DNA of 64,000 bases from Bacteroidota bacterium. Its GTDB lineage: Bacteria; Bacteroidota; Bacteroidia; Bacteroidales; JACABE01. Positions 3,101 through 19,535 of the stretch are shown in pieces. The position numbers and the translations under genes were made by a program. The notes beneath the pieces were generated by a model. That model ran no database searches, was not told the origin of the DNA, and saw nothing but the letters and a program-made list of their open reading frames with translations. The stretch is taken from NCBI GenBank assembly GCA_026391675.1, contig JAPLDQ010000046.1, positions 1 to 64,000 of the forward strand, in the 5' to 3' direction. Numbering within the stretch: the stretch's first letter is position 1; each line of letters begins with the position of its first letter.

Positions 3101-6100
3101 TTACCGGTAGCGCTTTAAGTGGTATTAATCTGGTAACTAATGGTGATTTTGAATCTGGCAATACAGGTTTTACTACAAGTTATGTATTGGCTCAACATGT
3201 TTATAATGGACTTTGGCCTGAAGGTACTTATGATGTCATGGAAAATCCACATGATGAACATCCGAATTTTGCAAGATGCGGTGACAATACATCTGGAAAT
3301 GGGAAGCAAATGGTTGTAAACGGGTCAACTATTGCAGGAGTAACAGTTTGGTCTCAAACAGTAAATGTAATGCCTGGCAATCATTATCAATTTTCATATT
3401 GGTTACAAAGTGTATTTAATCAACATCCTGCAGCATTACAGGTTTATATCAATAGTGTTGCTATCGGCCCAATTAATACTGCCTTAATCGATACCTGTGC
3501 ATGGAAGCAGTATTACTGGAACTGGAATTCAGATACTAACACAAAGGCTGTAATGTCAATTATTGACCAAAATACTATCGCTCAAGGAAATGACTTTTCT
3601 ATAGATGATATTACTTTTCAACAGGTTTGTGATGCTACCAGTACTGCAACAATATTAGTAAATGATGTTACTGCCGGAGCTATTGCTTCAGCACAAACTA
3701 TTTGCAGTGGTTCAACACCAGCAACGCTGACATCTGTTACACCAGGAACAGGTACAGGTACAATCTCCTATGAATGGCAAACAAATGCCAGTGGCAGTTT
3801 TGTTAAAATTAATGGGGCAACAGCTGCTACATATAATCCACCGGCATTAACATCAACTACTTCTTACAGAAGAAGGACAGTAGCTTTAAACGGAGGAACT
3901 ACATGTTATTCTACTTTTGCTACTGCTATTACTATTACGGTAACCCCATTGCCTAATGCAACAATATCCTATGCAACTGCACCTTTCTTTACATCAACCG
4001 CTACACCACAAAGTGTAACGTTAACAGGCACTACAGGGGGTACATATTCTGCTGCTCCAACAGGTCTTACATTAAATGCTTCTTCAGGTGCAATAACACC
4101 ATCAACAAGTACACCGGGAAATTATACAGTCACCTACACAATTGCAGCTTTCGGTGGATGTGGAGTCTTCACTACGAACACAAATGTATCAGTTTTTAAT
4201 GATAGGATAAACGTTTCCGGTTCAAATGCTGCTGATGGCTATTATAGCTCATTAACCAATACTTCAGGTGCTTTTGCAGCAATTAATGCATCATCACAAA
4301 CAGGTAAGAATATTATAATTACAATATTAGGAAGTTCCACTGCTGAAACAGGTTTGAACAGTTTAAATGCAGGGACATGGACATCGCTTAACCTTTATCC
4401 GGTATTTTCCGGATTAACAATAAGTGGCAGTTATGCAGGTCCTTTAATTAATCTTAATGGTGCTGATAAGGTTAATATTGACGGAAGAGTTAATAAATCA
4501 GGTGCAACAGACCTTATTATAACGAATACGAGTACTTCCAATACATCAAATACATCGACAATCAGGTTTACAGGTTCAGCAGAAAAAAACACAATTAACT
4601 ATTGTACTATTAAAGGGGCTGAAACTAATACCTCCAGTGGAATAATATTTTTCTCCACATCTGCATCAGGAAATGGAAATGACAGTAATATAATTAATAA
4701 TAATAACATCACCGGAGATGCAGCTGGCAGACCAGTAAATGCAATCTATTCACTGGGTGCAAGTGGCTATGAAAATAATGGAATTACTATAAGCAACAAT
4801 AATATCTTCAACGTTTTCAATTATGGAATTGCGTCAAACGGTATAAATTTATCAAGTTTTTCCTCTTTATGGACTATTTTATCCAACAGTTTTTATGAAA
4901 CAACAAATTATATTCCTACAGCCAGTGTTGCTTATAATTCGATACTAATAAATAATACCTCAGGAGTTGGATTTAATATTTCAGATAATTTTATTGGAGG
5001 AAGTGCAGATTCATGTGGAGGAAATGACTGGACAAAAACCAATGCTTTTGATAATACATATAATGCAATAAATTTGAGTGTTGGAACTTCTACAGTAAGT
5101 AATATACAAAATAATAAGATTAACAATTTTGCATGGAGCAATTCATCTGCAGCAGCATGGACCGGAATTAATATTTCAAATGGAAATGTAAATATTGGTA
5201 CAACTAATGCTAATTCTATTGGTTCAGCATTATCTCCCATAACACTAACAGCTGGTGCAACTGCAGCTAATTTTTACGGCATCTATATTTCAAGCACAGG
5301 AACTATTGATTGTCAAAACAATGTTATTAGCTCAATAAATACAACAAATGCTAATACAGCAAATGCAACAAATATTTATGGTATTATAAAGACTGCAGTA
5401 GCAGGAAGTACAACAATCAGTAATAATATTATCGGTAGCACATCTGTTGCTAATAGTATTCAGGCAAGTTCGCAGAGTACAGCTAATGCTCAATCTGTTT
5501 ATGGTATAAATTCTTCAGGTACAGGAACCATAATTATTAACAATAATACAATTGCAAATCTTAATAATAGCACAACAAATGCCAACATCGCAACAACTGG
5601 TTGTATCAATGGGATTACAGCAACAGCAGCAACTATATCTAATAATACAGTAAGTGATTTAACTATAGCTAATGCAAATGCTTCCGCTACCAATACAGCT
5701 TCTATATGCGGTATAGTTTTAAATGGCACCGGAATAAATACAGTAAGCGGAAATACCATTTATGATCTGTCAAATACTTATGCAAGTTTTGCAGGTAATG
5801 TAATTGCATTGTATTTTTCAGGAGGCACCACAATGAATGCTGTTTCAGCTAACCTGATACATAGTTTATCTGTAACAGGAGCTTCTTCAACAACAGCATC
5901 AATATATGGTATTAAAATAGCTACCGGAGTAACTACTTATGCCAATAATATTATAAGTTTAGGAGGAAATACCAAAACTACACTTTATGGATTATATGAT
6001 GCAGGTGCTGCTTCACAAAGCTGCTATTTGTATCACAACACTATATATCTGAGTGGAACATTAGCCTCAGGAAGTACAAATAAATCATACGCTTTATATA

Positions 6101-8520
6101 GTGCTGCAGCTTCAAATATAAGAAATTACAGGAATAATATTTTTTCAAATGCACGTTCAACTGTCAGTGGAACAAGTCAGCATTATGCAATTTCATTAAC
6201 TTCAAATTCATCATTAACTTGTAATTACAATGATTATTATGTAAGCGGAACTGCAGGGGTTTTAGGAATTTTATCAACTGACAGATCCACGCTGGCAGCC
6301 TGGCAAACTGCTACTAATCAAGATGTTAACAGTGTTAATACGAATCCATTATTTAGCAATGCAGGTTCAATTATTGCTATTGATTATAAAATTGCGGCAA
6401 ATCTAGTTGGTGTAAGCGGAACAGGAATTACAACTGATTATGGTGGAATAACCAGAATTAATCCAAATATGGGTGCATGGGAGAAATTAATAAATAAATG
6501 GAAAGGTACTGTAAGCAATAATTGGAACACATCAATAAACTGGACTGAAAATTCAGTGCCTGCTGTTGATGCTGATATAATTTTTGATAATGCACCTTTA
6601 AATCATTGTCAGTTAGATCAGGATCGTTCTGTAACTAATATTACCAATACACAATCAACTTATCGTATGGTTTGTAATGGAAAAAAACTTACAATAAAAG
6701 GAAGTCTTTATTTTACAAATGGTGCTCAAATTGATGCATCTACAACTTCTTCTACCATTGAATTTTCAGGAGCATCAGCTCAGTCTGTTCCTTCCGGAAG
6801 TTTTTATAATAATGAAGTATATAATTTAAATATCAACAATGCAAATAATATAGTGCTGAATGGAAGCTTACGTTTATTAAATACCATTGCAGCAAATTCA
6901 GGGCGATTAGATGCATATACCAATTCTCCTACTGTAATTTATGCTGGGATTTCCTCTCAAACTCTTGATAGCAACAGATACCTTAATGAAAGAATTTATA
7001 ATTTAACCATTGATAATGGTAGTGGTGTATTACTTAATGCTAATTTTACAATTAATAACACACTTCTTATTAATGCTCAAAAACTATTTACAATTCCTTC
7101 AACCAGACAATTAACCGTATCAGGCACTATCACTAATAATTCAGATACTACAGGTTTTATTTTACAATCTGATTTTAACGGAACGGCTTCACTTATTCAT
7201 AATACCAACAATGTAAAAGCTACAGTTCAACGATATATTAATGGCAATGCAGAAGCCTGGCATTTTTTATCATCACCGGTTAGCAATCAGGCTATAACAG
7301 GTAATTGGTTACCATCAGGCACTTATGGAAATGGGACAGGTTATGATCTTTATGCATGGAACGAACCAACCAGTTGCTGGATATATAAATTGAATACCAC
7401 TTCTGCAATAAACTGGAATACAATACATCCGGGAAATAACTTCGAAGTTGGACGTGGTTATTTATATGCTTTTCAGGCCAATAATCCAACCAAAGAATTT
7501 AAAGGAAATCTTAATAATGGCAGTGTGACTTATGCAATGACTGCAACAAGCAGCGATGTGACAAAAAAAGGATTTAATTTTATAGGAAATCCTTATCCAT
7601 CTTCTATTGACTGGCAATCAACTTCCGGCTGGACCCGCTCAGATTTATTAAACAGTGGAAGCGGTTATGATATGTGGATATACAATAAAACTGCAAATAA
7701 TTATGGTGTATGCAACTCCGCTTCAGGAAGTGGAACCAATGGTGTAAGCAGGTATATTGCACCCATGCAGGGTTTCTTCGTAAAAGCTGCTAATGCCGGA
7801 AATTTAATTATGGATAATGCTGCCAGGGTTCATAATGGTGCAGGTGTATGGCTTAAAAATACAGAAAAAGAACCAACAATTATAAGTATTGTTGTACAAT
7901 CTGCAATAGACAATAGTTCAGATGAATCACGCATACAATTTGGATATGCATCAAATAAAGAAGGAGCAGCAAAATTATTCAGCCCGATAGTTACGGCTCC
8001 GAGTCTTTTTATTCCTTATGGAAACGAATTATATTCAATAAAATATTTAACTGATACCATTGAAAATCCTGCAATACCCATAATGTTTAAATCAGGACAG
8101 GAGGGAAATTATACCATCACTTGCAACTTTGATGTAACTAAATTTGAAACTTTTTTTCTCGAAGATCGTAGAATGCATTATATTCAAAATATGAAAGCAA
8201 GAAATACATATAATTTTCAATCTTCACCTGATGATGATGCATCACGTTTCATATTACATTTTGGTCCCGATGATAATGCCTATTATGATAATGAACTTCC
8301 TGCAAGAGTATTTTCTGATGGCAATCAACTGGTAATAGACTTAAGTTTAATTAACGGCGAAACGGAAGCTTTTATTTATGATGCAACAGGACGTCTTTTA
8401 TATCAAAAAACATTAAATGGAGCAACGGAACATAAAATAACATTAGATAAAAACTTAAAAATGCTTTTAGTAAAATTAATTAACAAACAAGGTAAAGTTT
8501 GCAAAAAAATAATTTACTAA
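169..8520 (+). CDS. Giant T9SS-secreted surface protein with Ig-like and beta-helix repeats
   Basis: A 2783-residue protein with an N-terminal signal sequence. The hydrophobic core is at residues 18-34; translation may really begin at Met9 or Met14, since the listed ATG adds an unusually long N-region. The mature part is very rich in Asn, Thr, Ser and Gly. In order I see G8-like/strand-repeat modules (about 40-650), an Ig-like region starting with SPVSYCQGS (about 740-920), a carbohydrate-binding-like segment opening NLVTNGDFESG (about 987-1150), a further Ig-like unit (about 1180-1265), a long parallel beta-helix region with N-N-N ladders (about 1350-2100), a repeat of the N-terminal type of module (GTVSNNWNTSINWTENS, near 2110), and a type A T9SS sorting domain (last ~70 residues, ending KKIIY). 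This predicts export by Sec then T9SS and anchoring at the cell surface. An adhesin or matrix role is inferred; no catalytic motif was recognised. It lies just upstream of the pilus-like locus, with no shared operon evident. Confidence 0.85.
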   Translation: MNLSTNIKMLSPAMKNITGILVFFMLANNITLVGQVTGDYRSNTSSTANWNSASSWQRYNGTAWVAATTPPTSTNRVTIQVSDNIVMNANPGTCADLFITGNLNWTTGGRSLNVSGNLIISDGVLGGTAVGDLNVTGTFTVPAGTACDIQKDTINISGATNIFGTINFSSSSTAIQNFSGLVTVNSSGSWNNINNSQVNFKGGITNYGYFMAGTGVHNFISYAQALTGNLSIPNVTVTGITLTNNDTLTVSTALAGTGTIIQATDAILNLGGTSAITTLNATASGNTVNYYAAGNQTACKPTVYNNLTVSNSGIKTFATTPTVNDTLSMEGSATITVTSGVITYGANATLRYNTSTSRTSSAEEWITPFVASGGVIIDNTATITMDAAKVFNSTAPLTVNNGARLSMSTYALTLNGDFINNGGTASGTSGGVIITGTASTQNIGSFSTTGTVSMTKTSGKATFTGNISAASFNINGSGGTLNLGAASHTLSGGITLTSGTLNAASSTVTLATNWTNNGGAFTSSTSTFTFNGSAAQSIGGTTATTFNNLTISNASGVNLSINVTVNGILNLTNGIVTPGSYTLTIANSSGSAVSGGSTTSFINGALIRLLTSGETYNFPVGKATTYLPFGFTSVTGTNPFVKVEAFNGNAGGSASSPLISLSNTEYWYASIVSGTYSGGVVSLTRQTALNLFESIGRNTTTLNGAYSSLNGNVSGTSVINSDNTANLLGYFLFATKKSLTCGTISPVSYCQGSAINVPFTATGTFDAGNDFTAQLSDSSGSFASPTDIGTLTSQTSGTINATIPISQIPGTSYRIRVISSSPSMISNNNGTNITIKKSGIVNSVMPFSRCGPGSVTLNASASLGTINWYNSYTGGSLLGSGNNYTTPNISYNTTYYVEATYNGCPSSTRTAVTAYVVPLTSVTASGGGTYCPGDTITLTSSGSNIANQFWTGPNGFYSPYPNIVFNNATSAINGTYTITGSALSGINLVTNGDFESGNTGFTTSYVLAQHVYNGLWPEGTYDVMENPHDEHPNFARCGDNTSGNGKQMVVNGSTIAGVTVWSQTVNVMPGNHYQFSYWLQSVFNQHPAALQVYINSVAIGPINTALIDTCAWKQYYWNWNSDTNTKAVMSIIDQNTIAQGNDFSIDDITFQQVCDATSTATILVNDVTAGAIASAQTICSGSTPATLTSVTPGTGTGTISYEWQTNASGSFVKINGATAATYNPPALTSTTSYRRRTVALNGGTTCYSTFATAITITVTPLPNATISYATAPFFTSTATPQSVTLTGTTGGTYSAAPTGLTLNASSGAITPSTSTPGNYTVTYTIAAFGGCGVFTTNTNVSVFNDRINVSGSNAADGYYSSLTNTSGAFAAINASSQTGKNIIITILGSSTAETGLNSLNAGTWTSLNLYPVFSGLTISGSYAGPLINLNGADKVNIDGRVNKSGATDLIITNTSTSNTSNTSTIRFTGSAEKNTINYCTIKGAETNTSSGIIFFSTSASGNGNDSNIINNNNITGDAAGRPVNAIYSLGASGYENNGITISNNNIFNVFNYGIASNGINLSSFSSLWTILSNSFYETTNYIPTASVAYNSILINNTSGVGFNISDNFIGGSADSCGGNDWTKTNAFDNTYNAINLSVGTSTVSNIQNNKINNFAWSNSSAAAWTGINISNGNVNIGTTNANSIGSALSPITLTAGATAANFYGIYISSTGTIDCQNNVISSINTTNANTANATNIYGIIKTAVAGSTTISNNIIGSTSVANSIQASSQSTANAQSVYGINSSGTGTIIINNNTIANLNNSTTNANIATTGCINGITATAATISNNTVSDLTIANANASATNTASICGIVLNGTGINTVSGNTIYDLSNTYASFAGNVIALYFSGGTTMNAVSANLIHSLSVTGASSTTASIYGIKIATGVTTYANNIISLGGNTKTTLYGLYDAGAASQSCYLYHNTIYLSGTLASGSTNKSYALYSAAASNIRNYRNNIFSNARSTVSGTSQHYAISLTSNSSLTCNYNDYYVSGTAGVLGILSTDRSTLAAWQTATNQDVNSVNTNPLFSNAGSIIAIDYKIAANLVGVSGTGITTDYGGITRINPNMGAWEKLINKWKGTVSNNWNTSINWTENSVPAVDADIIFDNAPLNHCQLDQDRSVTNITNTQSTYRMVCNGKKLTIKGSLYFTNGAQIDASTTSSTIEFSGASAQSVPSGSFYNNEVYNLNINNANNIVLNGSLRLLNTIAANSGRLDAYTNSPTVIYAGISSQTLDSNRYLNERIYNLTIDNGSGVLLNANFTINNTLLINAQKLFTIPSTRQLTVSGTITNNSDTTGFILQSDFNGTASLIHNTNNVKATVQRYINGNAEAWHFLSSPVSNQAITGNWLPSGTYGNGTGYDLYAWNEPTSCWIYKLNTTSAINWNTIHPGNNFEVGRGYLYAFQANNPTKEFKGNLNNGSVTYAMTATSSDVTKKGFNFIGNPYPSSIDWQSTSGWTRSDLLNSGSGYDMWIYNKTANNYGVCNSASGSGTNGVSRYIAPMQGFFVKAANAGNLIMDNAARVHNGAGVWLKNTEKEPTIISIVVQSAIDNSSDESRIQFGYASNKEGAAKLFSPIVTAPSLFIPYGNELYSIKYLTDTIENPAIPIMFKSGQEGNYTITCNFDVTKFETFFLEDRRMHYIQNMKARNTYNFQSSPDDDASRFILHFGPDDNAYYDNELPARVFSDGNQLVIDLSLINGETEAFIYDATGRLLYQKTLNGATEHKITLDKNLKMLLVKLINKQGKVCKKIIY

Positions 8521-8810
8521 AATTTAATAAATTAACAGATTAAATAATATTATAATTAACGGAATACTAAATAATTAAATTAATTTATGTAAAACGGAAA
8601 CACAACATACTTTAGGGATATAACATAGTATCCTGCTTTGGTTCTTCATATCAGATATTTGGAAACATTGAATTAAAATATGTAACAAATTAAATTAATT
8701 AAATAATATAAAAAAATTACGGGTTTGTTTAAAAATAAAAAAATCAAAACAGATCTTAATAATAAAACAATAAATAAATTAAAATTAATAATCAATTAAA
8801 ACTTAAAACA
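8521..8810 (+). other. AT-rich intergenic leader before the first DUF4402 gene
   Basis: About 290 bases of very AT-rich sequence between the giant protein and the first DUF4402 gene. I see no ORF, no strong hairpin and no clear TAnnTTTG box. A TTTG at 8724-8727 has no -7 partner at the expected distance. The promoter for the first DUF4402 gene must lie here or further upstream, so a long untranslated leader is possible. Confidence 0.4.
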
Positions 8811-9326
8811 ATGAAAAAATTAATCGTATTATTCGCAGCTATCGTAATGATAGCATGTTTTTCTAACAGTGTTAATGCTCAGAATGTAATTACAGCAACA
8901 CAAACTGATGCTTATATTGTAACTCCACTTTCTGTTACATTAAACCATACATTAGATTTTGGTAAATTAGCTATTATGGGTGCATCTGGAGTTTGTGTTA
9001 TCACTCCAGTAGCAACACCTACACGTACTTCTACTAATGGTGTAAACCTTGTAACTTCTCCTTGGCAAAATGCATACTATACTGTACATGGAGAAGCTAC
9101 TTTTACTTATGATATTACGTTACCAGCTCAACCTGGTATAACAGTAAACGGTCCTTCAAGTAGTACTATGATAGTAGATAATTTTGTTAGTACACCAGCC
9201 ACAACAGGTACTATAGGTGGTGCAGGTAGTGAAGATGTTTATGTTGGTGCCACTCTTCATGTAAGTTCAGGTCAAACACCTGGTGCTTATCTAGGTTCTT
9301 TCAACTTTATTGTTAATTATAACTAA
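8811..9326 (+). CDS. DUF4402 secreted protein, putative major pilus subunit
   Basis: A 171-residue protein with a clear signal peptide (MKKLIVLFAAIVMIACFSNSVNA, cut near NAQ). The mature sequence matches the DUF4402 pattern: an N-terminal stretch of alternating polar and hydrophobic residues (VITATQTDAYIVTPLSV), then LDFGKL, and a C-terminal strand with G-x-Y-x-G-x-F (GAYLGSFNFIVNYN). This C-terminal pattern recalls chaperone-usher and spore-coat-U subunits, where the last strand contacts the chaperone and the N-terminal extension completes the next subunit. It has its own strong terminator downstream and is the most regular copy of the three, so I infer the major subunit. Fibre assembly is an inference from its neighbours (chaperone and usher-like genes); DUF4402 itself has no established biochemical role known to me. 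Confidence 0.8.
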   Translation: MKKLIVLFAAIVMIACFSNSVNAQNVITATQTDAYIVTPLSVTLNHTLDFGKLAIMGASGVCVITPVATPTRTSTNGVNLVTSPWQNAYYTVHGEATFTYDITLPAQPGITVNGPSSSTMIVDNFVSTPATTGTIGGAGSEDVYVGATLHVSSGQTPGAYLGSFNFIVNYN

Positions 9327-9347
9327 AATTTTAATACAATCATTGTT

Positions 9348-9392
9348 AAGAAGAGAAAGATTTTAACATCTTTCTCTTCTTTTAGTTTTTTT
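9348..9392 (+). terminator. Intrinsic terminator after the first DUF4402 gene
   Basis: A perfect 13-bp stem (AAGAAGAGAAAGA at 9348-9360 with its complement at 9369-9381), an 8-base loop and a T-rich tract (TTAGTTTTTTT). It would end transcription of the first DUF4402 gene and separate its expression level from that of the downstream genes. Confidence 0.8.
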
Positions 9393-9398
9393 ATTTAT

Positions 9399-9406
9399 TA
9401 TATTTG
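9399..9406 (+). promoter_or_regulatory. Bacteroidota-type -7 box for the second DUF4402 gene
   Basis: TATATTTG fits the TAnnTTTG element and lies 26 bases before the ATG of the next gene, immediately after the terminator. The expected -33 position falls in the terminator's T-tract, where there is TTTT/TTTA rather than TTTG, so the match is only half complete. Confidence 0.4.
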
Positions 9407-9431
9407 CATAAAAATAAAAAAACTATTGGCA

Positions 9432-9935
9432 ATGAGATTAATAAAAATCCTGATGCTAATTTACTTTTTAATTGAAAATTTTGCAATTTATGGGCAAACT
9501 ACAATTACGGCAACAGCAAATGCAGAAATTGTACCACTGTCTATTACAACAGAAGTAAGTCAATTAAATTTTGGTAAATTTACCCCAATTGGTGGTGGTG
9601 GAAATATTATTATAACTCCTCAGGGGAGTCGTGTATCAAATGGTACAATAATTTTAAAAGAAAGTGCTGTAAGCCCTGCAATATTTGATATTTCTGACTC
9701 ACAAAACACTAACTTTAGTGTAATATTTCCTAAAAATACAGTATATATCTATCATCAAAATGGAATTAATGCAATGTCTTTAACTTCATGGACAGTTGAT
9801 TTACCAACTTTAGGATCTTCATCAGAGAAAAAAAATATTGTAAAAATAGGTTGTACATTAAATATTGGATCCATAGAAACCAATCCCATTGGGATGTATT
9901 CCGGCACTTATTCATTAACTTTCTTTTATAATTAA
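9432..9935 (+). CDS. DUF4402 secreted protein, putative minor pilus subunit
   Basis: A 167-residue protein from the ATG at 9432; an in-frame TTG six bases upstream is less likely because MRLIKILMLIYFLIENFAIYGQ makes a complete signal peptide. The mature N-terminus TTITATANAEIVPLSI has the alternating pattern of DUF4402 proteins, followed by LNFGKF and a central P-A-I-F-D-I motif. It ends with GMYSGTYSLTFFYN, the same G-x-Y-x-G closing strand as the first copy. It is followed after 33 bases by the chaperone gene, so the two are probably co-transcribed from the promoter just upstream. I infer that it is a minor or adaptor subunit of the same fibre. Confidence 0.75.
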   Translation: MRLIKILMLIYFLIENFAIYGQTTITATANAEIVPLSITTEVSQLNFGKFTPIGGGGNIIITPQGSRVSNGTIILKESAVSPAIFDISDSQNTNFSVIFPKNTVYIYHQNGINAMSLTSWTVDLPTLGSSSEKKNIVKIGCTLNIGSIETNPIGMYSGTYSLTFFYN

Positions 9936-9968
9936 CAATTTAATTTAAATTTATTAAAAAAACATTTT

Positions 9969-10793
9969 ATGAAAAAAATATTATTAATTATTCTAATCCC
10001 ATTTTTAGGTATTAATCTTCATTCTTTTGCTCAGGGGAACCTATTGGTAACACCTGTTCGGGTAGTTTTTGAAGGAAACAAGCAGAAAGAAGAATTAAGT
10101 TTAATAAATACAGGCAATGACACAGCTATTTATTCAATATCATTTTTGCAGTATAATATGACCGAAGATGGTAACTTCGAAGCCATTGAAAAGTCAGGTG
10201 ATAATCAGGAATTTGCTGATCCTTTTTTACGTGTTTTCCCACGTCAGATTACACTGGCACCACGTGAATCACAATCAATACGTTTACAATACCGTAAAGC
10301 TAACAATATGAAATCCGGTGAATACCGTTCACACTTATATTTCAGAGCTGATAAAGGAAATAATAGCGCACTGGGAATGGAAACAAAAGATAAAGATACT
10401 TCATTATTAAGTGTTAAAATAACACCTGTTTTTGGGGTTAGTATACCTGTTATCATTCGCAATGGAGAAATAAAAGTTAGTTCAACTATTAGTAATTTAA
10501 GATTAGACAAATCAGATTCTCTTCAATATATAAAATTTTGTTTAAACAGATCAGGAAATATTTCTGTTTATGGAGATATTATAATAGAATACATTCCAAA
10601 TCAGGGTAAAGCTATAGAAATTGGAACAATGAGAGGAATAGCTATTTATACTAATATAAACAAACGTAATATTTCATTTAAATTAAATACTGGAAAAGCC
10701 ATTACATTAAATAATGGGAAAATTAAAATCCGCTTTACCAGCCCAAAAGACGCTCCATATTTACTTTATGCTGAGCAAGAACTTGTACTATAA
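9969..10793 (+). CDS. PapD-like periplasmic pilus chaperone
   Basis: A 274-residue protein with a signal peptide ending near SFAQ. The N-terminal domain (about 22-130) reads like a PapD fold: LLVTPVRVVFEG, then ELSLINTGNDTAIYSISF, RVFPRQITLAPRESQSIRL and GEYRSHLYFR. The P-R-x-x-x-L-x-P-x-x-x-Q-x-I/V-R run and the E-Y-R-S-H-L run are hallmarks of fimbrial chaperones, the latter especially of archaic-type systems. GVSIPVIIR starts the link to the second domain (about 170-274). In known systems the chaperone caps subunits in the periplasm by lending a beta strand (donor-strand complementation) and delivers them to the usher. Its place between DUF4402 genes and an usher-like gene supports that role here. 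No experimental homologue from this phylum is known to me. Confidence 0.75.
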   Translation: MKKILLIILIPFLGINLHSFAQGNLLVTPVRVVFEGNKQKEELSLINTGNDTAIYSISFLQYNMTEDGNFEAIEKSGDNQEFADPFLRVFPRQITLAPRESQSIRLQYRKANNMKSGEYRSHLYFRADKGNNSALGMETKDKDTSLLSVKITPVFGVSIPVIIRNGEIKVSSTISNLRLDKSDSLQYIKFCLNRSGNISVYGDIIIEYIPNQGKAIEIGTMRGIAIYTNINKRNISFKLNTGKAITLNNGKIKIRFTSPKDAPYLLYAEQELVL

Positions 10794-10820
10794 ACGTTTT
10801 TAAGTTGAATACAATAAATG

Positions 10821-10872
10821 TGAAGTATATTTTATAATATTACAATAAAATATACTTCATTTCTTATATTTT
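10821..10872 (+). terminator. 14-bp stem-loop between chaperone and third DUF4402 gene
   Basis: TGAAGTATATTTTA at 10821-10834 pairs perfectly with 10846-10859 around an 11-base loop and is followed by the T-rich TTTCTTATATTTT. It may terminate or attenuate transcription after the chaperone, or stabilise the upstream message. The stem is A/T-rich, so strength is uncertain. Confidence 0.55.
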
Positions 10873-10903
10873 AACTAAATTAACATTATTTAAAAAATAA
10901 TTT

Positions 10904-11437
10904 ATGTCAAAACAATTCTATTATAATATAAAATTTTTGACATTTTTATTTATTGTTATTATCCAACTATTGTCATTACAAACTTTAAGGTCCCAACCAG
11001 GTTTACCAACCAGATCAATTGCAATAATACCAACACAATCAATTAGCTTTGGGGCTTTTTGTTTAATAAATTCAGGAAGTTCAGGTGGAACTGTTCAGGT
11101 TGACTGGCAAGGCAATCGTTTATCAACAGGTCAGATTTTTCTTTTAAATACCTATCCCTGGCACCCTGCAATTTTTGAAATACATCTCTGTCAGGGTCGG
11201 AATGTGGTTATTACTTATTCCTCATCAACAACATTAACAGGTAGTAATGGTGGTTCAATAACTTTAAATATCGGACCTACTGAAAAAGGAGGTAATGGAA
11301 GTTCCTTTGCAGTAAACAACGATTGTAACTTTATCACCATTTTACGTGTAGGAGGTACGCTAATAATAGCAAATAATGCCTCTAATCCAGCCGGATATTA
11401 TACCGGTAATTTTAGTATTACATTCAACCAGCAATAA
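10904..11437 (+). CDS. DUF4402-like secreted protein with short N-terminal extension, possible tip subunit
   Basis: A 177-residue protein with a long signal sequence ending near LRSQ. The mature part shows ISFGAF, the central HPAIFEI motif and the closing strand GYYTGNFSITF, aligning with the other two subunits in the locus. The stretch before the F-G motif is about 20 residues against 26-27 in the other copies and lacks the T-A-T-alternating segment. It also has three cysteines (GAFCLI, HLCQGR, NDCNFI) where the others have one. In donor-strand systems the subunit without a donor extension sits at the fibre tip, so this is my candidate tip or terminal subunit (inference). Its 3' end is 19 bases from the usher-like start. 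Confidence 0.65.
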   Translation: MSKQFYYNIKFLTFLFIVIIQLLSLQTLRSQPGLPTRSIAIIPTQSISFGAFCLINSGSSGGTVQVDWQGNRLSTGQIFLLNTYPWHPAIFEIHLCQGRNVVITYSSSTTLTGSNGGSITLNIGPTEKGGNGSSFAVNNDCNFITILRVGGTLIIANNASNPAGYYTGNFSITFNQQ

Positions 11438-11456
11438 GATTTTGAATAAAACTTAT

Positions 11457-14054
11457 ATGTTGAATGAAGCTAAAAGATATATAAATAAATTTAAGTTTTT
11501 GTTAACTGTTTCCCCATTTTTATTATTTTCTAATTTAATTGATTTGCAGGCTTATGCTCAGAATAAATCTAATTTTGATGAAATTTCAGTTACTGTACAA
11601 ATCGTTAGTATTAATAAAACATTCATTTTAGATGCTTTATATTCATCTGATGCAAAGCTTTATATTTCTGTTGAAGAATTATTTCAGATTTTGAAAATAC
11701 CTTGTCTTGCAAATAAAGAAGCTGATATTCTCAGTGGTTTCTTTGAAAATGAAAAAAGGCTGTATGAAATAAATTTTGTTACCAAACAAATTAAAGACGA
11801 CACAAAATTATATAATTGTGATAAAGAATTAATAAAAGATATGGGGATGATTTTTCTGGAATCATCTGAATTTGAAAAAATATTCGGATTATATTTACTA
11901 TTTAATTTCAGAGAACTGTCAATCAAATTAACTTCAGATTTTGAATTACCTGTTAAAAAGATAGAACGATTAGAGAAATCCAGGAACAATATCCAAAGTA
12001 ATTCATTTACACAAACCTTAATTGATACAACAATTAGACGTGACTATCATTTATTTCAATATGGGACAATTGACTGGTCAGTTATGTCAACTCAGGTTAA
12101 AAATAATCCAATCGAGTCAAGATATAACTTTAGTTTAGGAAGTGAAATCCTTTTTGGTGAAGCAAATTTGTTCCTAAACATTTCAGATAATTACAAACAG
12201 GATCCACGACTACAACAATTTACCTGGAGATGGGTAGATAATGATAAAAAAATTATTCGTCAAATGCAACTTGGAAATGTTAACAGCAATACTATATCTT
12301 CAATATATGCTCCCGTACATGGATTTTCTGTAAGTAATACACCTACAACTTTAAAAATAGCCAAAGGTGAATATATAATAAATGATGTAACAAAACCAGA
12401 TTGGCTTGTTGAATTATACATTAATAATGCATTAATCAATTTTACAAAAGCTGATGCAGCAGGTTACTTCACATTCAGGATTCCGATTATTTATGGTTAC
12501 ACTCTTATGAAATTGAAATTCTATGGACCAATGGGAGAAGAAAGGTCCGAAGAGCGTATAATAAATATTCCTGTTAGTTTTATGCCTCCCGGCAATTTTG
12601 AATATAAACTTAACGGTGGATTTTTACAAGATAATAATGATTCTTATGTTGGAAGAGGAGAAGGAAGATATGGAGTAAACCGTAACATTACAATTGGAGG
12701 TGGTATAGAATATTTATCCTCCAGTTCTTATTCAAATTCAATCTCTTTTGTAAATACCTCGATATTAATAACTCCAAGATTAAATCTGAGTAGTGAGTAT
12801 GATCATAAAGTCAGAACCAAAGTACTTTTAAATTATTATCTATTATCAAATGTTTTATTTGAGATTAATTACATTAAATATGCCAAAGGGCAAAAAGCTA
12901 TTTTATTTAATTATCTAGAAGAAAGGAAATTAGGATTAATATTTCCTTTACACATAAGTAATGTTTATATCGGTTCCCGTTTATCTTTTAAACAAAATAT
13001 TTACAAAAATTTTACTTATAATATGGCTGAATCGATGTTTTCAACGACTTATCATCAGTTTAATGTTAATTTATCTGCCTATGCTAACTGGATTGATAAT
13101 AAATCAGTATATATTTATAGCGCAATTGCACTATCATTTCGACTTCCTAAAAGCTTAATATTCAGGCCATCATCACAATTTAATGTAAGTAATAGAGAAT
13201 TAACTTCAATTAAATTTGAATTGGAAAAAAAAGTGTCAAAGGCTGGATATGGTACTGTTTCTTACGAAAAAAATATTAATACTAATTATAAAAGTTTTAA
13301 TATTTCATTTAAGTATGATCTCAATTTTGCTCAAGCCAATATTTCTGTTCGTAACATCAGTCAAGATATTTCACTGATGGAAAATATCAGAGGGAACTTA
13401 ACATTCGATGCTAAGAACAACAGGACTTTTGCCAGCCAATCATCAATGGTTGGACGCGGAGGCATTGCATTTATTGCTTATGTTGATATAAACCAGAATG
13501 GAATTTACGACCCTGGCGAAAAAAAAGCTAAAGGTCTGTTAGTTAACGTAAATGGTGTTGGGCAGCCAACTTATAGTAATAAAGATTCTATTTTACGTGT
13601 TAGGGGTCTTGAACCTTTTGTATATTATAATGTAGAATTAGATGATAAAGATTTTGAATTTATTACCTGGCGAATAAAAAAGAAAAACTACAGTATATTA
13701 ATTGATCCTAACCAGTTTAAAACCATAGAAATCCCTGTTACTCCTGTTGCCGAAATAACCGGTACTATATTATTTGATGATGACACAATTCAAAAAGGGA
13801 AAGGAAGAGTTGCTGTAATAATTTATAATAAAGACGGAAGTATTGCTACTAAAATCATCTCAGAATCTGATGGTTATATCAGTTATTTGGGCCTTCTTCC
13901 AGGTGAATATTATGCAAAAATAGATCCGGTTCAGTTAGAACGATTGCAAATGGGGGTAAAACCAGTTCAGCTTAATTTTACTATTAAAGCAAAAGAAGAA
14001 GGAGATGTGTTTAATGGTTTAGATTTTGTTTTAAAAAACATCAAATCCAAATAA
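11457..14054 (+). CDS. Usher-like outer-membrane protein of the pilus locus
   Basis: An 865-residue protein from the ATG at 11457; the open frame extends back into the previous gene, but this Met starts a good signal peptide ending near AYAQ. Features: an N-terminal periplasmic region (about 36-180) with LYISVEELFQIL; a segment like an usher's early barrel and plug (QMQLGNVNSN, PVHGFSVSNTP, VELYINNALINFTKADA, YGYTLMKLKFYGP); a long run of alternating strands (about 380-660) consistent with a beta-barrel; then IAYVDINQNGIYDPGEKKAKG (about 675-700) and a carboxypeptidase-regulatory-like beta-sandwich near the C-terminus. Ushers form the outer-membrane pore that receives chaperone-subunit complexes and threads out the fibre. 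Similarity is by motif reading, so a related outer-membrane protein of another class is possible. It is the last gene of the set and is convergent with the heptose cluster. Confidence 0.65.
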   Translation: MLNEAKRYINKFKFLLTVSPFLLFSNLIDLQAYAQNKSNFDEISVTVQIVSINKTFILDALYSSDAKLYISVEELFQILKIPCLANKEADILSGFFENEKRLYEINFVTKQIKDDTKLYNCDKELIKDMGMIFLESSEFEKIFGLYLLFNFRELSIKLTSDFELPVKKIERLEKSRNNIQSNSFTQTLIDTTIRRDYHLFQYGTIDWSVMSTQVKNNPIESRYNFSLGSEILFGEANLFLNISDNYKQDPRLQQFTWRWVDNDKKIIRQMQLGNVNSNTISSIYAPVHGFSVSNTPTTLKIAKGEYIINDVTKPDWLVELYINNALINFTKADAAGYFTFRIPIIYGYTLMKLKFYGPMGEERSEERIINIPVSFMPPGNFEYKLNGGFLQDNNDSYVGRGEGRYGVNRNITIGGGIEYLSSSSYSNSISFVNTSILITPRLNLSSEYDHKVRTKVLLNYYLLSNVLFEINYIKYAKGQKAILFNYLEERKLGLIFPLHISNVYIGSRLSFKQNIYKNFTYNMAESMFSTTYHQFNVNLSAYANWIDNKSVYIYSAIALSFRLPKSLIFRPSSQFNVSNRELTSIKFELEKKVSKAGYGTVSYEKNINTNYKSFNISFKYDLNFAQANISVRNISQDISLMENIRGNLTFDAKNNRTFASQSSMVGRGGIAFIAYVDINQNGIYDPGEKKAKGLLVNVNGVGQPTYSNKDSILRVRGLEPFVYYNVELDDKDFEFITWRIKKKNYSILIDPNQFKTIEIPVTPVAEITGTILFDDDTIQKGKGRVAVIIYNKDGSIATKIISESDGYISYLGLLPGEYYAKIDPVQLERLQMGVKPVQLNFTIKAKEEGDVFNGLDFVLKNIKSK

Positions 14055-14101: not shown

Positions 14102-14782
14102 TTAAAGTTGCTTTTGTGCCAGAAGATAATCTTCAGGAATTCCAATATCAATAAAATATTTATCCGTAACATAAGCGGCAAAATAATATTTTGCTAAATA
14201 GCTTTCCAGAAAGTCTTTTTCAAATGAAAATTTTTGAGGGAAATTTAACGATTGAAGAATAATATTATCCAGTATATATACGCCACCATTGATAAAACCT
14301 TCATTCATATATTTCTTCTCATTAAACTGAATGATACGCTTATTTGCTAATTCAACTGTCCCATATCTGTCAAAATGCTGCATTGGCTTAACTGCCAATG
14401 TAAAATCAGCATGTTGTAGTTTATGAAATGTAGTTAATTCATCAAGGTTTACGTCAAAAAAAGTATCACCATTAATCAGATAAAATAGATTGCTATTCAA
14501 CAATTTGCAGGCATTCATTATACCGCCACCTGTTCCTAGTGGTTCTTCTTCAATAGCATAAAGCAAATCAATATTTTTGTATTTCCTTCCAAAATATTGC
14601 TCGATAACTTCATATTTAAATCCAACAGATAAAATTACTCTTTCAATTTTATATTTACTCAAATAATCAAGTAAATACTTCAAAAATGGCTTGCCATTGA
14701 TATCAGCCATGGGCTTTGGAATGTCTTTTACCACACCTTGTAAGCGTGTTCCTAATCCACCGGCAAGAATTATTACCTCCAT
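14102..14782 (-). CDS. hddC: Sugar-phosphate nucleotidyltransferase, HddC-like
   Basis: A 226-residue protein opening MEVIILAGGLGTRLQG, the G-G-x-G-T-R-L nucleotide-binding signature of the nucleotidyltransferase family, followed by KPMADINGKPFL and LGTGGGI. Length and motif set fit D-glycero-alpha-D-manno-heptose 1-phosphate guanylyltransferase, which makes GDP-heptose for S-layer or capsule glycans. Pairing with the GHMP kinase two genes upstream supports the heptose assignment over a generic glucose-1-phosphate enzyme. It is the last gene of the leftward polysaccharide set and is separated from the kinase by the broken four-helix-bundle gene. The cytoplasmic isomerase (GmhA-like) and phosphatase (GmhB-like) steps are not in this window. 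Confidence 0.75.
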   Translation of the reverse strand: MEVIILAGGLGTRLQGVVKDIPKPMADINGKPFLKYLLDYLSKYKIERVILSVGFKYEVIEQYFGRKYKNIDLLYAIEEEPLGTGGGIMNACKLLNSNLFYLINGDTFFDVNLDELTTFHKLQHADFTLAVKPMQHFDRYGTVELANKRIIQFNEKKYMNEGFINGGVYILDNIILQSLNFPQKFSFEKDFLESYLAKYYFAAYVTDKYFIDIGIPEDYLLAQKQL

Positions 14783-14791
14783 AATTATTTA

Positions 14792-14819
14792 GTTATCAGT
14801 AAACAGTTATCAGTTTAAA
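14792..14819. repeat. Heptamer tandem repeat (GTTATCA/GTAAACA)
   Basis: Four consecutive 7-base units (GTTATCA, GTAAACA, GTTATCA, GTTTAAA) lie ten bases upstream of the nucleotidyltransferase start. It is one of several 7-bp-period arrays in this window. Confidence 0.6.
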
Positions 14820-14876
14820 AGCTAAGTAAAAATATATTATTCAATTGATTAATTCTAAAAATATATATAATAAATT

Positions 14877-15232
14877 TTATTGATTGTTTATCCGTGTTGT
14901 TTTTAATATTGAAAATAAGATTTTCCCAATTTCGTCTAAGTTATTATTTATATTGTTAAATTGATCAATACTAATGAATTCAGTATCTTTTAATAAAGAA
15001 ATCCAGTATTGAGTTCTTTACATTCTTTATAGGCTATAGACATTTTTGCAGAAAATTCTGCTTTTGAAATTGCACCATTTGCTTCTGAAATATTAGCTCC
15101 TATTGAAGTACCAGATTTTAAAAGTTGTTTTGAAAGTACAAATTCTCTTTTATCTATAGTAATTTGCTTATATAATTTAACAATTTTTATTGCAAGTAAA
15201 TATGCCTTATTATATAAATTATTATTAATCAT
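14877..15232 (-). pseudogene. Frameshifted four-helix-bundle (S23-type) protein gene
   Basis: The first 80 codons read a typical four-helix-bundle protein: NKAYLLAIKIVKLYKQIT, then SGTSIGANISEANGA, then AYKECKEL, but stop early at TGFLY. A different frame of the following DNA continues the family pattern: YWISLLKDTEFISIDQF, then a helix ending ILFSILKTTRINNQ and a stop at 14877-14879. Joining the two parts gives a protein of about 118 residues, the usual length. The break is near 15005-15010 and needs one extra base in CTCAATACTGG, so either a single-base deletion or a sequencing error. These small proteins are often encoded in odd places, including 23S rRNA intervening sequences. Here it sits between two heptose genes and is flanked by heptamer repeats, which suggests an insertion. 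Confidence 0.7.
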
Positions 15233-15270
15233 AATTTTAAATCATTATAAGTAAGTGTTTGTATCAAAGT

Positions 15271-15312
15271 GTTTACTGTTTACTATTCACTGTTTACTGT
15301 TTACTGCTCACT
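15271..15312. repeat. Heptamer tandem repeat (GTTTACT) running into a stop codon
   Basis: Six consecutive 7-base units: GTTTACT twice, ATTCACT, GTTTACT twice, GCTCACT. The array overlaps the last codons and the stop of the heptose kinase gene; on that strand the TAA lies inside AGTAAAC. Confidence 0.75.
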
Positions 15313-16329
15313 AATCCAGGTTTCAAGTCCCTGTTTGGTAAATTCGTATCTTTGAACGCTACCTCCGAATTTCTCTAAGGCTTTAATAACTTCGTATCTT
15401 GTATTTGCAGGACAATAAAAGAAAATAAATCCGCCACCGCCGGCACCTGATATTTTTCCACCGGACGCACCTGCTTTTATTGCAGTATCATATAAATCTT
15501 CAAACAAAGCGGTTGTAATACCTTCTGCCATTTGCTTTTTGTACTGCCAGCCCATATTTAAAATTTCACCAATTTTATTTAATTCACCTTTTAATAATGC
15601 TTCTTTCATCATAAGTGACTGTTCTTTCAGCTTATGCATTGCTTCTATCGATTTGGTATTTTTGGCATTTACATTTTTTTGCTGTTGCTGAATGATATCA
15701 GATGAATTGCGGCTGGTTTGTGTATAAAGCAACACAATGTTATAGGAAAGTTCATTCATTACCCGGTCTTTAATTCGTAACGGATTAATGATAACTTTAT
15801 CATTTTCATAAAATTCCATAAAGTTAAAACCTCCAAAAGTTGCAGCATACTGATCCTGCTTCCCTCCTGCCATTGCCATATCTACCCTTTCGATTTCATA
15901 GGCCAGATGTGCCAAATCATATTCACCCAAAGGCAAGGAAAGCCATTCAGCAAAAGCACCCAATACTGCTACAACTAATGTAGATGAAGTTCCTAAGCCA
16001 GAACCCGGAGGTGCATCAACATAAGTTGCCAATTCAAATGATAATGGTTTTAAATTGTATTTTTTTACTATTCTGTTATAAATGGCTTTAAGCAAATCTA
16101 CCTTACCATCCATAGGAAGCTGTAATTCAGACAAATATTCATAATATTCAACTTTATCATTTAAAGTGAATTTTATTTTACCATCTGTTCGGGGAATTAT
16201 ATTTGCATAGGCATACATGCTTATTGTTGCATTTAAAATGGCTCCCCCATATATATCGGAGTAGGGTGAAACATCAGTTCCACCACCTGCCAGGCCAATT
16301 CTGAGCGGTGCTTTACTTCTGATAATCAT
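15301..16329 (-). CDS. hddA: GHMP kinase, D-glycero-D-manno-heptose 7-phosphate kinase-like
   Basis: A 342-residue GHMP-family kinase. The N-terminus MIIRSKAPLRIGLAGGGTDVSPY carries the R-x-x-G-x-x-G-G-G-T-D motif typical of HddA-type sugar kinases, the ATP loop is PPGSGLGTSSTLVVA (about 108-122), and the C-terminal motif 3 is KISGAGGGGFIFFY. It phosphorylates a sugar phosphate at the anomeric carbon, most likely sedoheptulose-derived heptose 7-phosphate given the HddC-like gene downstream; a fucokinase-type substrate cannot be excluded. Its ATG overlaps the TAA of the neighbouring glycosyltransferase by one base, so the two are probably translated together. The last codons overlap a heptamer repeat array. 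Confidence 0.75.
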   Translation of the reverse strand: MIIRSKAPLRIGLAGGGTDVSPYSDIYGGAILNATISMYAYANIIPRTDGKIKFTLNDKVEYYEYLSELQLPMDGKVDLLKAIYNRIVKKYNLKPLSFELATYVDAPPGSGLGTSSTLVVAVLGAFAEWLSLPLGEYDLAHLAYEIERVDMAMAGGKQDQYAATFGGFNFMEFYENDKVIINPLRIKDRVMNELSYNIVLLYTQTSRNSSDIIQQQQKNVNAKNTKSIEAMHKLKEQSLMMKEALLKGELNKIGEILNMGWQYKKQMAEGITTALFEDLYDTAIKAGASGGKISGAGGGGFIFFYCPANTRYEVIKALEKFGGSVQRYEFTKQGLETWISEQ

Positions 16330-17474
16330 TATCTTGCGTTGTTAATTAATTCGTAAATAGTAGCTGTCATTCTGCTCCATTGGTATTTTTGTTTTTCTTT
16401 TAAAATTCCTTCAGCAAAATATAATTGTTTATTATTTTCATAAAAATCGACCAATCGATCGGCAATAGCTTTGGCATTTACCTCAACTACATAGCCTGCA
16501 ACATCATCCGGAACTATTTCTGATAAACCTCCTACATTAGTTACCAGCATTGGTTTATTAAAATGGTAACAAATTTGTGTAACACCACTTTGAGTTGCAT
16601 TCTTATAGGGTTGAACTATCATATCAGCTGCACAAAAGTAGTTTCCTACTGCATTATCAGGAATAAAGTCTGTTTTAAGTACTATGTGTTCACTAAGTTT
16701 TAATTCTTCAATTAAATCCAGATATGGTTTTGCATCTTCATAAAATTCACCGGCAATAATAAGTTTTACAGGAAATTTGCGAAGGCGTTCATCGGCAAAA
16801 GCCTGCAATAATAAATCCAGACCTTTGTATGCCCTTATAAATCCGAAAAATAACAAATATGAAAATTGATTGTCAAGTCCTGTATTTTTCAGTGCAGTTT
16901 CCTTATCCAAAACTGCTCCAAAATTATCGAACAAAGGATGGGGACAAAATGCTTTAGCTTTATTTTTATCAAAAAATTCAATATCGTTCAATACTGATTT
17001 AGACATAGCGACAAAACCATCTACAGGTTTTACAAAATAATTCGTTAATTGATTGTCACCGATGCGTTTTTCGTGAGGAATAATATTATCGACTATACAG
17101 ATAACCCTAGTCTTCTTATTTCTTTTTACAATACGGGCAATAGTTCCAAAACATGGAGCCATAAAAGGCAACCAATATTTAATAATTAATAAATCAGGTT
17201 TTTGATTTTTTATCTCTTTCCCAATTTTTAACCAGTTTAAAGGATTAATGGAATTAACTTTTACACGAATGGCGATATTTTCAGGTGCTTTCCAATCGGC
17301 AAACTGAGATTTACCAGGGAATAGAAAATTTGGATATTGTAACTTAAAAGTATATATGCATACATGATGGCCTTCGTCCTGTAGTTGCTTAGCGAGACGT
17401 TCATTGTAGGCAGCCAGACCACCCCTGAAAGGATGTGCGGTTCCCAATATTACAATGTTGAGTTTTTCGCTCAT
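16329..17474 (-). CDS. Family 4 glycosyltransferase
   Basis: A 381-residue GT-B enzyme. The N-terminal domain begins LNIVILGTAHPFRGGLAAYN with the G-G-x-x-x-Y/H loop that follows the first strand in GT4 proteins. The C-terminal domain has YLLFFGFIRAYKGLDLLLQAF (G-x-x-x-x-x-K-G donor motif), LIIAGEFY and the acceptor/nucleotide motif QPYKNATQSGVTQICYHFNKP with the conserved SGV/E-type loop. It probably adds one sugar to the lipid-linked glycan at the cytoplasmic face of the inner membrane. Donor and acceptor cannot be deduced. The gene is 108 bases downstream of the asparagine-synthase pair and overlaps the GHMP kinase. Confidence 0.85.
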   Translation of the reverse strand: MSEKLNIVILGTAHPFRGGLAAYNERLAKQLQDEGHHVCIYTFKLQYPNFLFPGKSQFADWKAPENIAIRVKVNSINPLNWLKIGKEIKNQKPDLLIIKYWLPFMAPCFGTIARIVKRNKKTRVICIVDNIIPHEKRIGDNQLTNYFVKPVDGFVAMSKSVLNDIEFFDKNKAKAFCPHPLFDNFGAVLDKETALKNTGLDNQFSYLLFFGFIRAYKGLDLLLQAFADERLRKFPVKLIIAGEFYEDAKPYLDLIEELKLSEHIVLKTDFIPDNAVGNYFCAADMIVQPYKNATQSGVTQICYHFNKPMLVTNVGGLSEIVPDDVAGYVVEVNAKAIADRLVDFYENNKQLYFAEGILKEKQKYQWSRMTATIYELINNAR

Positions 17475-17582
17475 TTTTTTAATTATTATTTAACAAAGAT
17501 ACAAAAAACAACAGGAAGGCTAAAACGATAATTTTTCAAATAATCTATTTTTGACCAACTGTGAATATAATTATCTGTACTT

Positions 17583-19532: not shown

Positions 19533-19535
19533 ACA

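Follow-up and report, generated by a model that had tools for sequence, protein, structure and literature searches.

A probable chaperone-usher pilus locus with DUF4402 subunits in a Bacteroidota genome

The window analyzed here is a stretch of 64,000 nucleotides from the genome of a Bacteroidota bacterium (contig JAPLDQ010000046.1). At positions 8811-14054 it carries five open reading frames (ORFs) which very probably encode a complete chaperone-usher pilus system. All lie on the plus strand with short gaps between them, at the places given in an earlier note on this DNA. The first two encode DUF4402 subunits; next come genes for a PapD-like chaperone, for another DUF4402 subunit, and for a predicted usher. 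The reading of the locus proposed in that note is supported overall by evidence from the usher, the chaperone, the subunits, and the gene order. The five genes are as follows:

8811-9326, plus strand: sub1, 171 residues, a secreted DUF4402 subunit with an N-terminal extension (QNVITATQTDAYIV...), PF14352 E 5.2e-23
9432-9935, plus strand: sub2, 167 residues from its ATG, a secreted DUF4402 subunit with an N-terminal extension, PF14352 E 2.5e-22 (the ORF-calling tool chose an alternative TTG start at 9426)
9969-10793, plus strand: periplasmic PapD-like chaperone, 274 residues, with the Pro-Arg pair P91 and R120 and a candidate donor strand at residues 149-163
10904-11437, plus strand: sub3, 177 residues, a DUF4402 protein without the N-terminal extension and with three cysteines, PF14352 E 9.5e-16
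11457-14054, plus strand: predicted usher, 865 residues, with an N-terminal domain (40-160), barrel strands (200-293), a plug (300-371), further barrel strands (381-651), and two C-terminal domains (668-861)

The 865-residue protein is best understood from its predicted structure. In the AlphaFold2 (AF2) model (predicted local distance difference test, pLDDT, 82.9; predicted template modeling score, pTM, 0.60), the N-terminal domain is followed by 6 barrel strands, the plug inserted at residues 300-371, 18 more strands, and the two C-terminal domains. The resulting count of 24 is a reading of the DSSP elements listed for the model. FimD and PapC have 24 strands with the plug after the sixth, and the modeled succession of 6 strands, plug, and 18 strands thus follows their plan. 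The earlier note had considered that the protein might turn out to be a TonB-dependent or other barrel, but FimD and PapC fill the 18 best PDB rows from Foldseek (E 8.9e-28 to 9.9e-13), and the first unrelated barrel, LptD, comes only at E 7.1e-7. The 15 best rows from VIA-align are likewise FimD or PapC, with Z-scores of 16.9-22.0 versus 13.7 for the next barrel. Sequence identity in these FimD/PapC fold alignments is about 10-14%.

Profile-profile comparison points to the same family. A profile of the window's usher family, aligned with the six ushers of E. coli K-12 using hhalign, matched them at E 3.7e-7 over 495 columns, and the addition of Proteobacterial relatives brought this to E 9.7e-15 over 546 columns. 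Column-shuffled usher targets gave 0.15 at best and reversed ones 0.07, while there was no match to the TonB-dependent receptors FhuA and CirA or to LptD (E 0.05 or worse). The plug alone did not match the K-12 ushers by profile. Searching the PDB by sequence with the window's usher and chaperone gave nothing relevant; with a wider usher profile, this search retrieved SdrD/NOMO-like domains for the C-terminal part and other short unrelated stretches, with no usher among them. Taken together, the model and the controlled profile match indicate that the 865-residue protein is an usher, with a predicted 24-strand plugged barrel and periplasmic C-terminal domains.

The 274-residue protein, judged by its family profile, is related to the PapD/FimC chaperones. 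As a single sequence it has only weak Pfam matches, to PapD_N and other Ig-like families. The family profile aligns with six K-12 chaperones at E 2.4e-6, or 1e-7 when relatives are added, and column-shuffled controls reach 0.03 or worse. Relatives on plasmids of Polaromonas JS666, Pseudoalteromonas, and Novosphingobium (L095, L097, and L098) exceed the PF00345 cut-off. The outcome that the earlier note had named as damaging, a chaperone unrelated to PapD, was therefore not seen. Against the PDB, neither the chaperone-family profile nor the subunit-family profile did better than a single-sequence search, and a wider chaperone profile reached PapD and FimC only at E 0.2-0.5.

Both chaperone signatures described earlier, P-R-x-x-x-L-x-P at residues 91-98 and E-Y-R-S-H-L at 118-123, are present and conserved. 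P91, R92, and L96 occur in 30/30 sequences and R120, the arginine of EYRSHL, in 28/30, while P91 and R120 are 29 residues apart in every sequence. Across the chaperone superfamily just one residue is invariant, a proline (Pro59 in CsuC and Pro60 in EcpB); archaic and alternative chaperones are marked in addition by an arginine, Arg89 in both proteins, which places the two residues 30 apart in CsuC and 29 apart in EcpB (Pakharukova and colleagues, PMC4654587). The window's chaperone thus carries the Pro-Arg pair of the non-classical chaperones, with R120 presumably in strand F1, and by its chaperone the locus resembles the archaic and alternative chaperone-usher classes. In CsuC, the marker arginine is held by Ser117 (PMC4654587). 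We read S158 as the counterpart of this serine, and the position is Ser or Thr in 28 of the 30 chaperones. The alternating hydrophobic stretch that ends there, within residues 149-163, is a candidate for the donor strand of the chaperone. In the second domain, R194 (28/30) and Y227 (27/30) are less clear candidates for the Arg and Tyr with which non-classical chaperones bind the carboxylate of the subunit, since they are separated by 33 residues versus 21-22 in EcpB and CsuC. As a side observation, R31 (window positions 10059-10061; conserved in 28/30) aligns with the arginine of the classical TRVIY motif, and the cleft of the chaperone may therefore combine residues of the classical and the non-classical type.

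The three secreted proteins are DUF4402 members as claimed, with PF14352 scores of 82.6, 80.3, and 59.1 bits against a cut-off of 25.2, and they are the only DUF4402 matches in the genome (4.04 Mb). They match no other pilin family, nor does the DUF4402 profile match the FimA-type subunits of K-12. Their signal peptides end in A/G/S-Q, the glutamine being invariant in 55 subunits, and none contains a lipobox cysteine. The AF2 model of sub1 (pLDDT 93.4) retrieves chaperone-usher pilins in 46 of the 50 rows listed by Foldseek and in 49 of the 50 listed by VIA-align, with CsuA/B and CupE among the latter.

The earlier note had all the subunits share an alternating N-terminal strand and a closing G-x-Y-x-G-x-F strand. 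The closing G-x-Y-x-G motif is indeed near-invariant in the 55 subunits, but the N-terminal strand occurs only in sub1 and sub2, sub3 being some 7-8 residues shorter there. The same difference holds across the 55 subunits. When the extension is measured as the residues between the invariant N-terminal glutamine of the mature protein and the conserved FG motif, it is at least 24 residues long in 35/35 subunits encoded upstream of the chaperone, and at most 22 in 20/20 subunits encoded between chaperone and usher. Sixteen of these 20 also have two or three cysteines. A subunit without an N-terminal donor strand can accept a strand and not give one, which suggests a position at the tip. Sub3 is thus probably the tip subunit, while sub1 would be the major (shaft) subunit and sub2 a minor or adaptor subunit.

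The gene order is kept in relatives, as the earlier note had proposed to verify. The large protein is present in 14 of 98 related genomes, and scanning of genome contigs yielded 18 named loci, among them loci from a Flavobacteriaceae bin and from Prolixibacteraceae, Labilibaculum, and Mariniphaga. Draconibacterium bins carry the locus as well. These loci begin with at least one DUF4402 gene, followed by the chaperone gene, a single further DUF4402 gene, and the gene for the large protein, and the number of DUF4402 genes upstream of the chaperone differs among loci. Chaperone and usher occur together in 30 distinct loci (L036, a duplicate of L020, is left out of this count), and in 28 of them a subunit gene lies between the two. 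Across the phylum, about 45 of 296 Bacteroidota genomes have full-length members of the usher family (matches at E < 1e-50). The chaperone adjoins the usher in 18 of the 20 phylum-wide loci examined, one of the exceptions coming from a short contig that stops past the usher gene. A second clade of Bacteroidota ushers (L030, L034, L109-L115, and similar loci) is paired with a more diverged chaperone, which lacks the EYRSHL motif in L030 and L034; weak DUF4402-like subunits usually lie upstream of it.

Certain results weigh against a chaperone-usher locus. Neither Pfam nor NCBIfam gives an usher match above cut-off for the 865-residue protein. Its structured N-terminal domain (residues 40-160) is not covered by most of the fold alignments, as most VIA-align rows start near residue 193, and a profile of this domain does not match the N-terminal domains of the K-12 ushers (E 0.3-0.4). 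It is the N-terminal domain of FimD that binds the chaperone. The single fold matches of sub1 are also weak, with a best Foldseek E of 0.02 (none below 0.001) and a best VIA-align Z of 8.1; here the pilin reading depends on the uniformity of the match list.

A pathway can be proposed by comparison with characterized chaperone-usher systems. The subunits and the chaperone would be exported to the periplasm by the signal peptides seen in their sequences. The chaperone would then fold each DUF4402 subunit, its own G1 strand filling the gap left by a missing last strand, as homology and the conserved anchor residues suggest. Sub3, which has no donor strand to offer, would be delivered first and so occupy the tip. 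The usher, modeled as a 24-strand outer-membrane barrel closed by its plug, would receive the chaperone-subunit complexes. With each cycle, an incoming sub2 or sub1 would insert its N-terminal extension into the subunit added before it, in place of the strand donated by the chaperone, and the fibre would grow outwards. Assembly of the DUF4402 subunits at the usher would thus proceed by donor-strand exchange, with sub1, whose gene is followed by a terminator-like hairpin, made in excess as the shaft. The fibre likely serves in adhesion or biofilm formation.

The best surviving alternative, itself improbable, is a relative of chaperone-usher systems that exports single proteins or short oligomers, for example as a coat-like layer, with no long pilus. 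It would account for a locus that lacks a gene for a tip adhesin carrying its own lectin domain, sub3 being a single-domain protein, and for the varying number of upstream DUF4402 genes. However, the two subunit classes separate fully by the length of their extensions, just as a polymer with a tip predicts. It is very unlikely that the large protein is an ordinary Bacteroidota barrel (a TonB-dependent receptor, an LptD-like protein, or a porin) and that the secreted DUF4402 proteins have nothing to do with it. The profile databases name no usher here, and the sole Pfam domain found, the C-terminal SdrD_B/carboxypeptidase-regulatory-like one, is of a type common in Bacteroidota surface proteins. 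Yet both fold searches rank FimD and PapC first by a wide margin, no profile match to FhuA/CirA or LptD is found, and, in the loci with flanking sequence, the usher gene nearly always adjoins chaperone and DUF4402 genes. Equally hard to sustain is a surface structure made by the type V (FimA/Mfa1) lipoprotein-protease route or by type IX secretion: Bacteroidota are known for both routes, and the large protein encoded upstream has a weak C-terminal match of the type IX secretion system (T9SS) sorting type, but the subunit signal peptides end in A/G/S-Q without a lipobox cysteine, none of the five proteins has a FimA/Mfa or T9SS domain, and the locus has a chaperone and an usher in their place.

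Among known systems, the locus read as a chaperone-usher system can first be compared with the archaic (sigma) ones, such as Csu of Acinetobacter and CupE of Pseudomonas. Both have subunits, a chaperone, and an usher. The invariant proline and the non-classical arginine are shared (P91/R120 in the window, Pro59/Arg89 in CsuC; PMC4654587), as is a Ser or Thr at the position read as CsuC Ser117, and the sub1 fold matches the CsuA/B and CupE pilins. In contrast, the window's subunits are DUF4402 proteins, its usher falls below the PF00577 cut-off, and the usher N-terminal domain is unmatched. In the open-access literature, chaperone-usher pili in general and archaic systems in particular are reported from Proteobacteria, Cyanobacteria, and Deinococcus-Thermus, not from Bacteroidota. 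Classical type 1 and P pili (FimCD and PapCD) share the usher plan of barrel, plug, and C-terminal domains, and a PapD-like chaperone by profile. They differ in usher sequence, in subunits (there is no FimA-type sequence match), and in the chaperone, which in the window has the non-classical arginine and a proline at the position read as the classical cleft lysine. Type V fimbriae (FimA and Mfa1 of Porphyromonas) are also Bacteroidota surface fibres thought to be held by strand exchange, but their subunits are protease-processed lipoproteins which need no chaperone-usher pair, and no such genes are found at the window's locus.

Relatives of the chaperone and usher exist outside Bacteroidota, on plasmids of Polaromonas, Sphingopyxis, Novosphingobium, and Pseudoalteromonas (six records). 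In all six operons, small subunit genes, a chaperone gene, and a gene for a large protein follow one another in that order, and DUF4402 is found in five; in the L099 operon, the small gene is annotated as hypothetical only. Usher and chaperone are homologous to those of the window, the chaperones with 25-34% identity over most of their length, but no subunit gene lies between them. The plasmid ushers are annotated as carboxypeptidase regulatory-like, SdrD B-like, or hypothetical, and PF00577 finds nothing in the six records. The usher tree keeps three sets apart: the E. coli proteins and the six plasmid proteins are each confined to one side of a branch, and the Bacteroidota ushers group together at a different one. 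The Bacteroidota ushers were therefore not imported recently. A recent transfer out of Proteobacteria was rejected, since a well-supported branch has the Bacteroidota ushers all on one side, with deep splits among them. The window's usher belongs to a separate deep usher lineage.

PF00577 itself gives no match to the window's 865-residue protein and none above cut-off in the 296 Bacteroidota genomes. Four matches below threshold were found (in 1/40 genomes of one set and 3/296 of another), all of them inside members of the window's usher family, which independently points to ushers.

Many members of the family end in a tail. Ushers of two relatives from the same genus (L019 and L020) are nearly 300 residues longer than the window's, and the tail of the L019 protein contains OmpA and SPOR domains. 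Among 29 mostly distant members, the tail is at least 50 residues long in 27, with SPOR domains in 15 and TPR domains in 5. The obvious reading is that the SPOR/OmpA tails would act as a periplasmic anchor for the base of the pilus. The window's usher has no peptidoglycan-binding tail. The ushers of L026, L034, and L039 also end in SPOR domains. On the Pseudoalteromonas xiamenensis plasmid (L097), separate SPOR genes at 3310-3795 and 8612-9250 lie on either side of the DUF4402-chaperone-usher operon, which looks like a tail provided in trans.

These data raise the possibility, which we hold tentatively at slightly less than even confidence, of an unrecognized chaperone-usher lineage spanning the phylum, whose ushers have diverged beyond the reach of current profiles and have an N-terminal docking domain of a different kind, with a SPOR/OmpA peptidoglycan anchor in many members and fibres made of DUF4402 subunits. 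What is familiar would be the mechanism, and what is new the DUF4402 subunit domain, the diverged usher, possibly the docking domain, and the phylum. In the open-access literature, titles and abstracts revealed no description of chaperone-usher pili from Bacteroidota, which is not proof of absence, and no paper on DUF4402/PF14352 was found there. If the lineage is real, one of the best-studied secretion pathways extends to a major phylum, in a family that is common there yet missed by the standard protein-family databases. DUF4402 would gain a function, and proteins annotated only as carboxypeptidase regulatory-like would be accounted for. If the docking domain truly differs, then chaperone recruitment works in a new way. 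The SPOR- and OmpA-tailed ushers suggest a way of holding the base of a pilus to the cell wall.

Two hairpins lie in the gaps between the genes:

9348-9381, plus strand: terminator-like hairpin after sub1, a 14-bp perfect stem followed by a T-rich tail
10819-10857 (approximate), plus strand: inverted repeat between the chaperone and sub3 genes, with a 15-bp perfect stem

The gap after sub1 (9327-9431) folds at -28.2 kcal/mol (z -6.4 versus shuffled sequence). A stem followed by a T-run is also seen after the first-type subunit in three relatives (L019, L020, and L021), and is absent from many other loci. Such a terminator would let sub1 be made in excess of the products of the downstream genes. 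The gap between chaperone and sub3 folds at -20.3 kcal/mol (z -5.1), and its inverted repeat is possibly a partial terminator or a processing site. A Bacteroidota promoter motif was found 10 times against 7.6 expected, no more than chance, with no copy just upstream of 8811.

The locus is flanked on both sides by other genes. Just upstream, at 169-8520 on the same strand, lies the gene for the 2783-residue protein with the weak match of the T9SS sorting type (type C); it contains two Ig_7 stretches and is probably a separate secreted giant protein. Downstream, at 14102-21491, convergent genes on the minus strand encode a nucleotidyltransferase, a sugar kinase, a glycosyltransferase, and two adjacent asparagine synthase-like proteins (649 and 651 residues), a cluster that, read by eye, looks like a polysaccharide locus.

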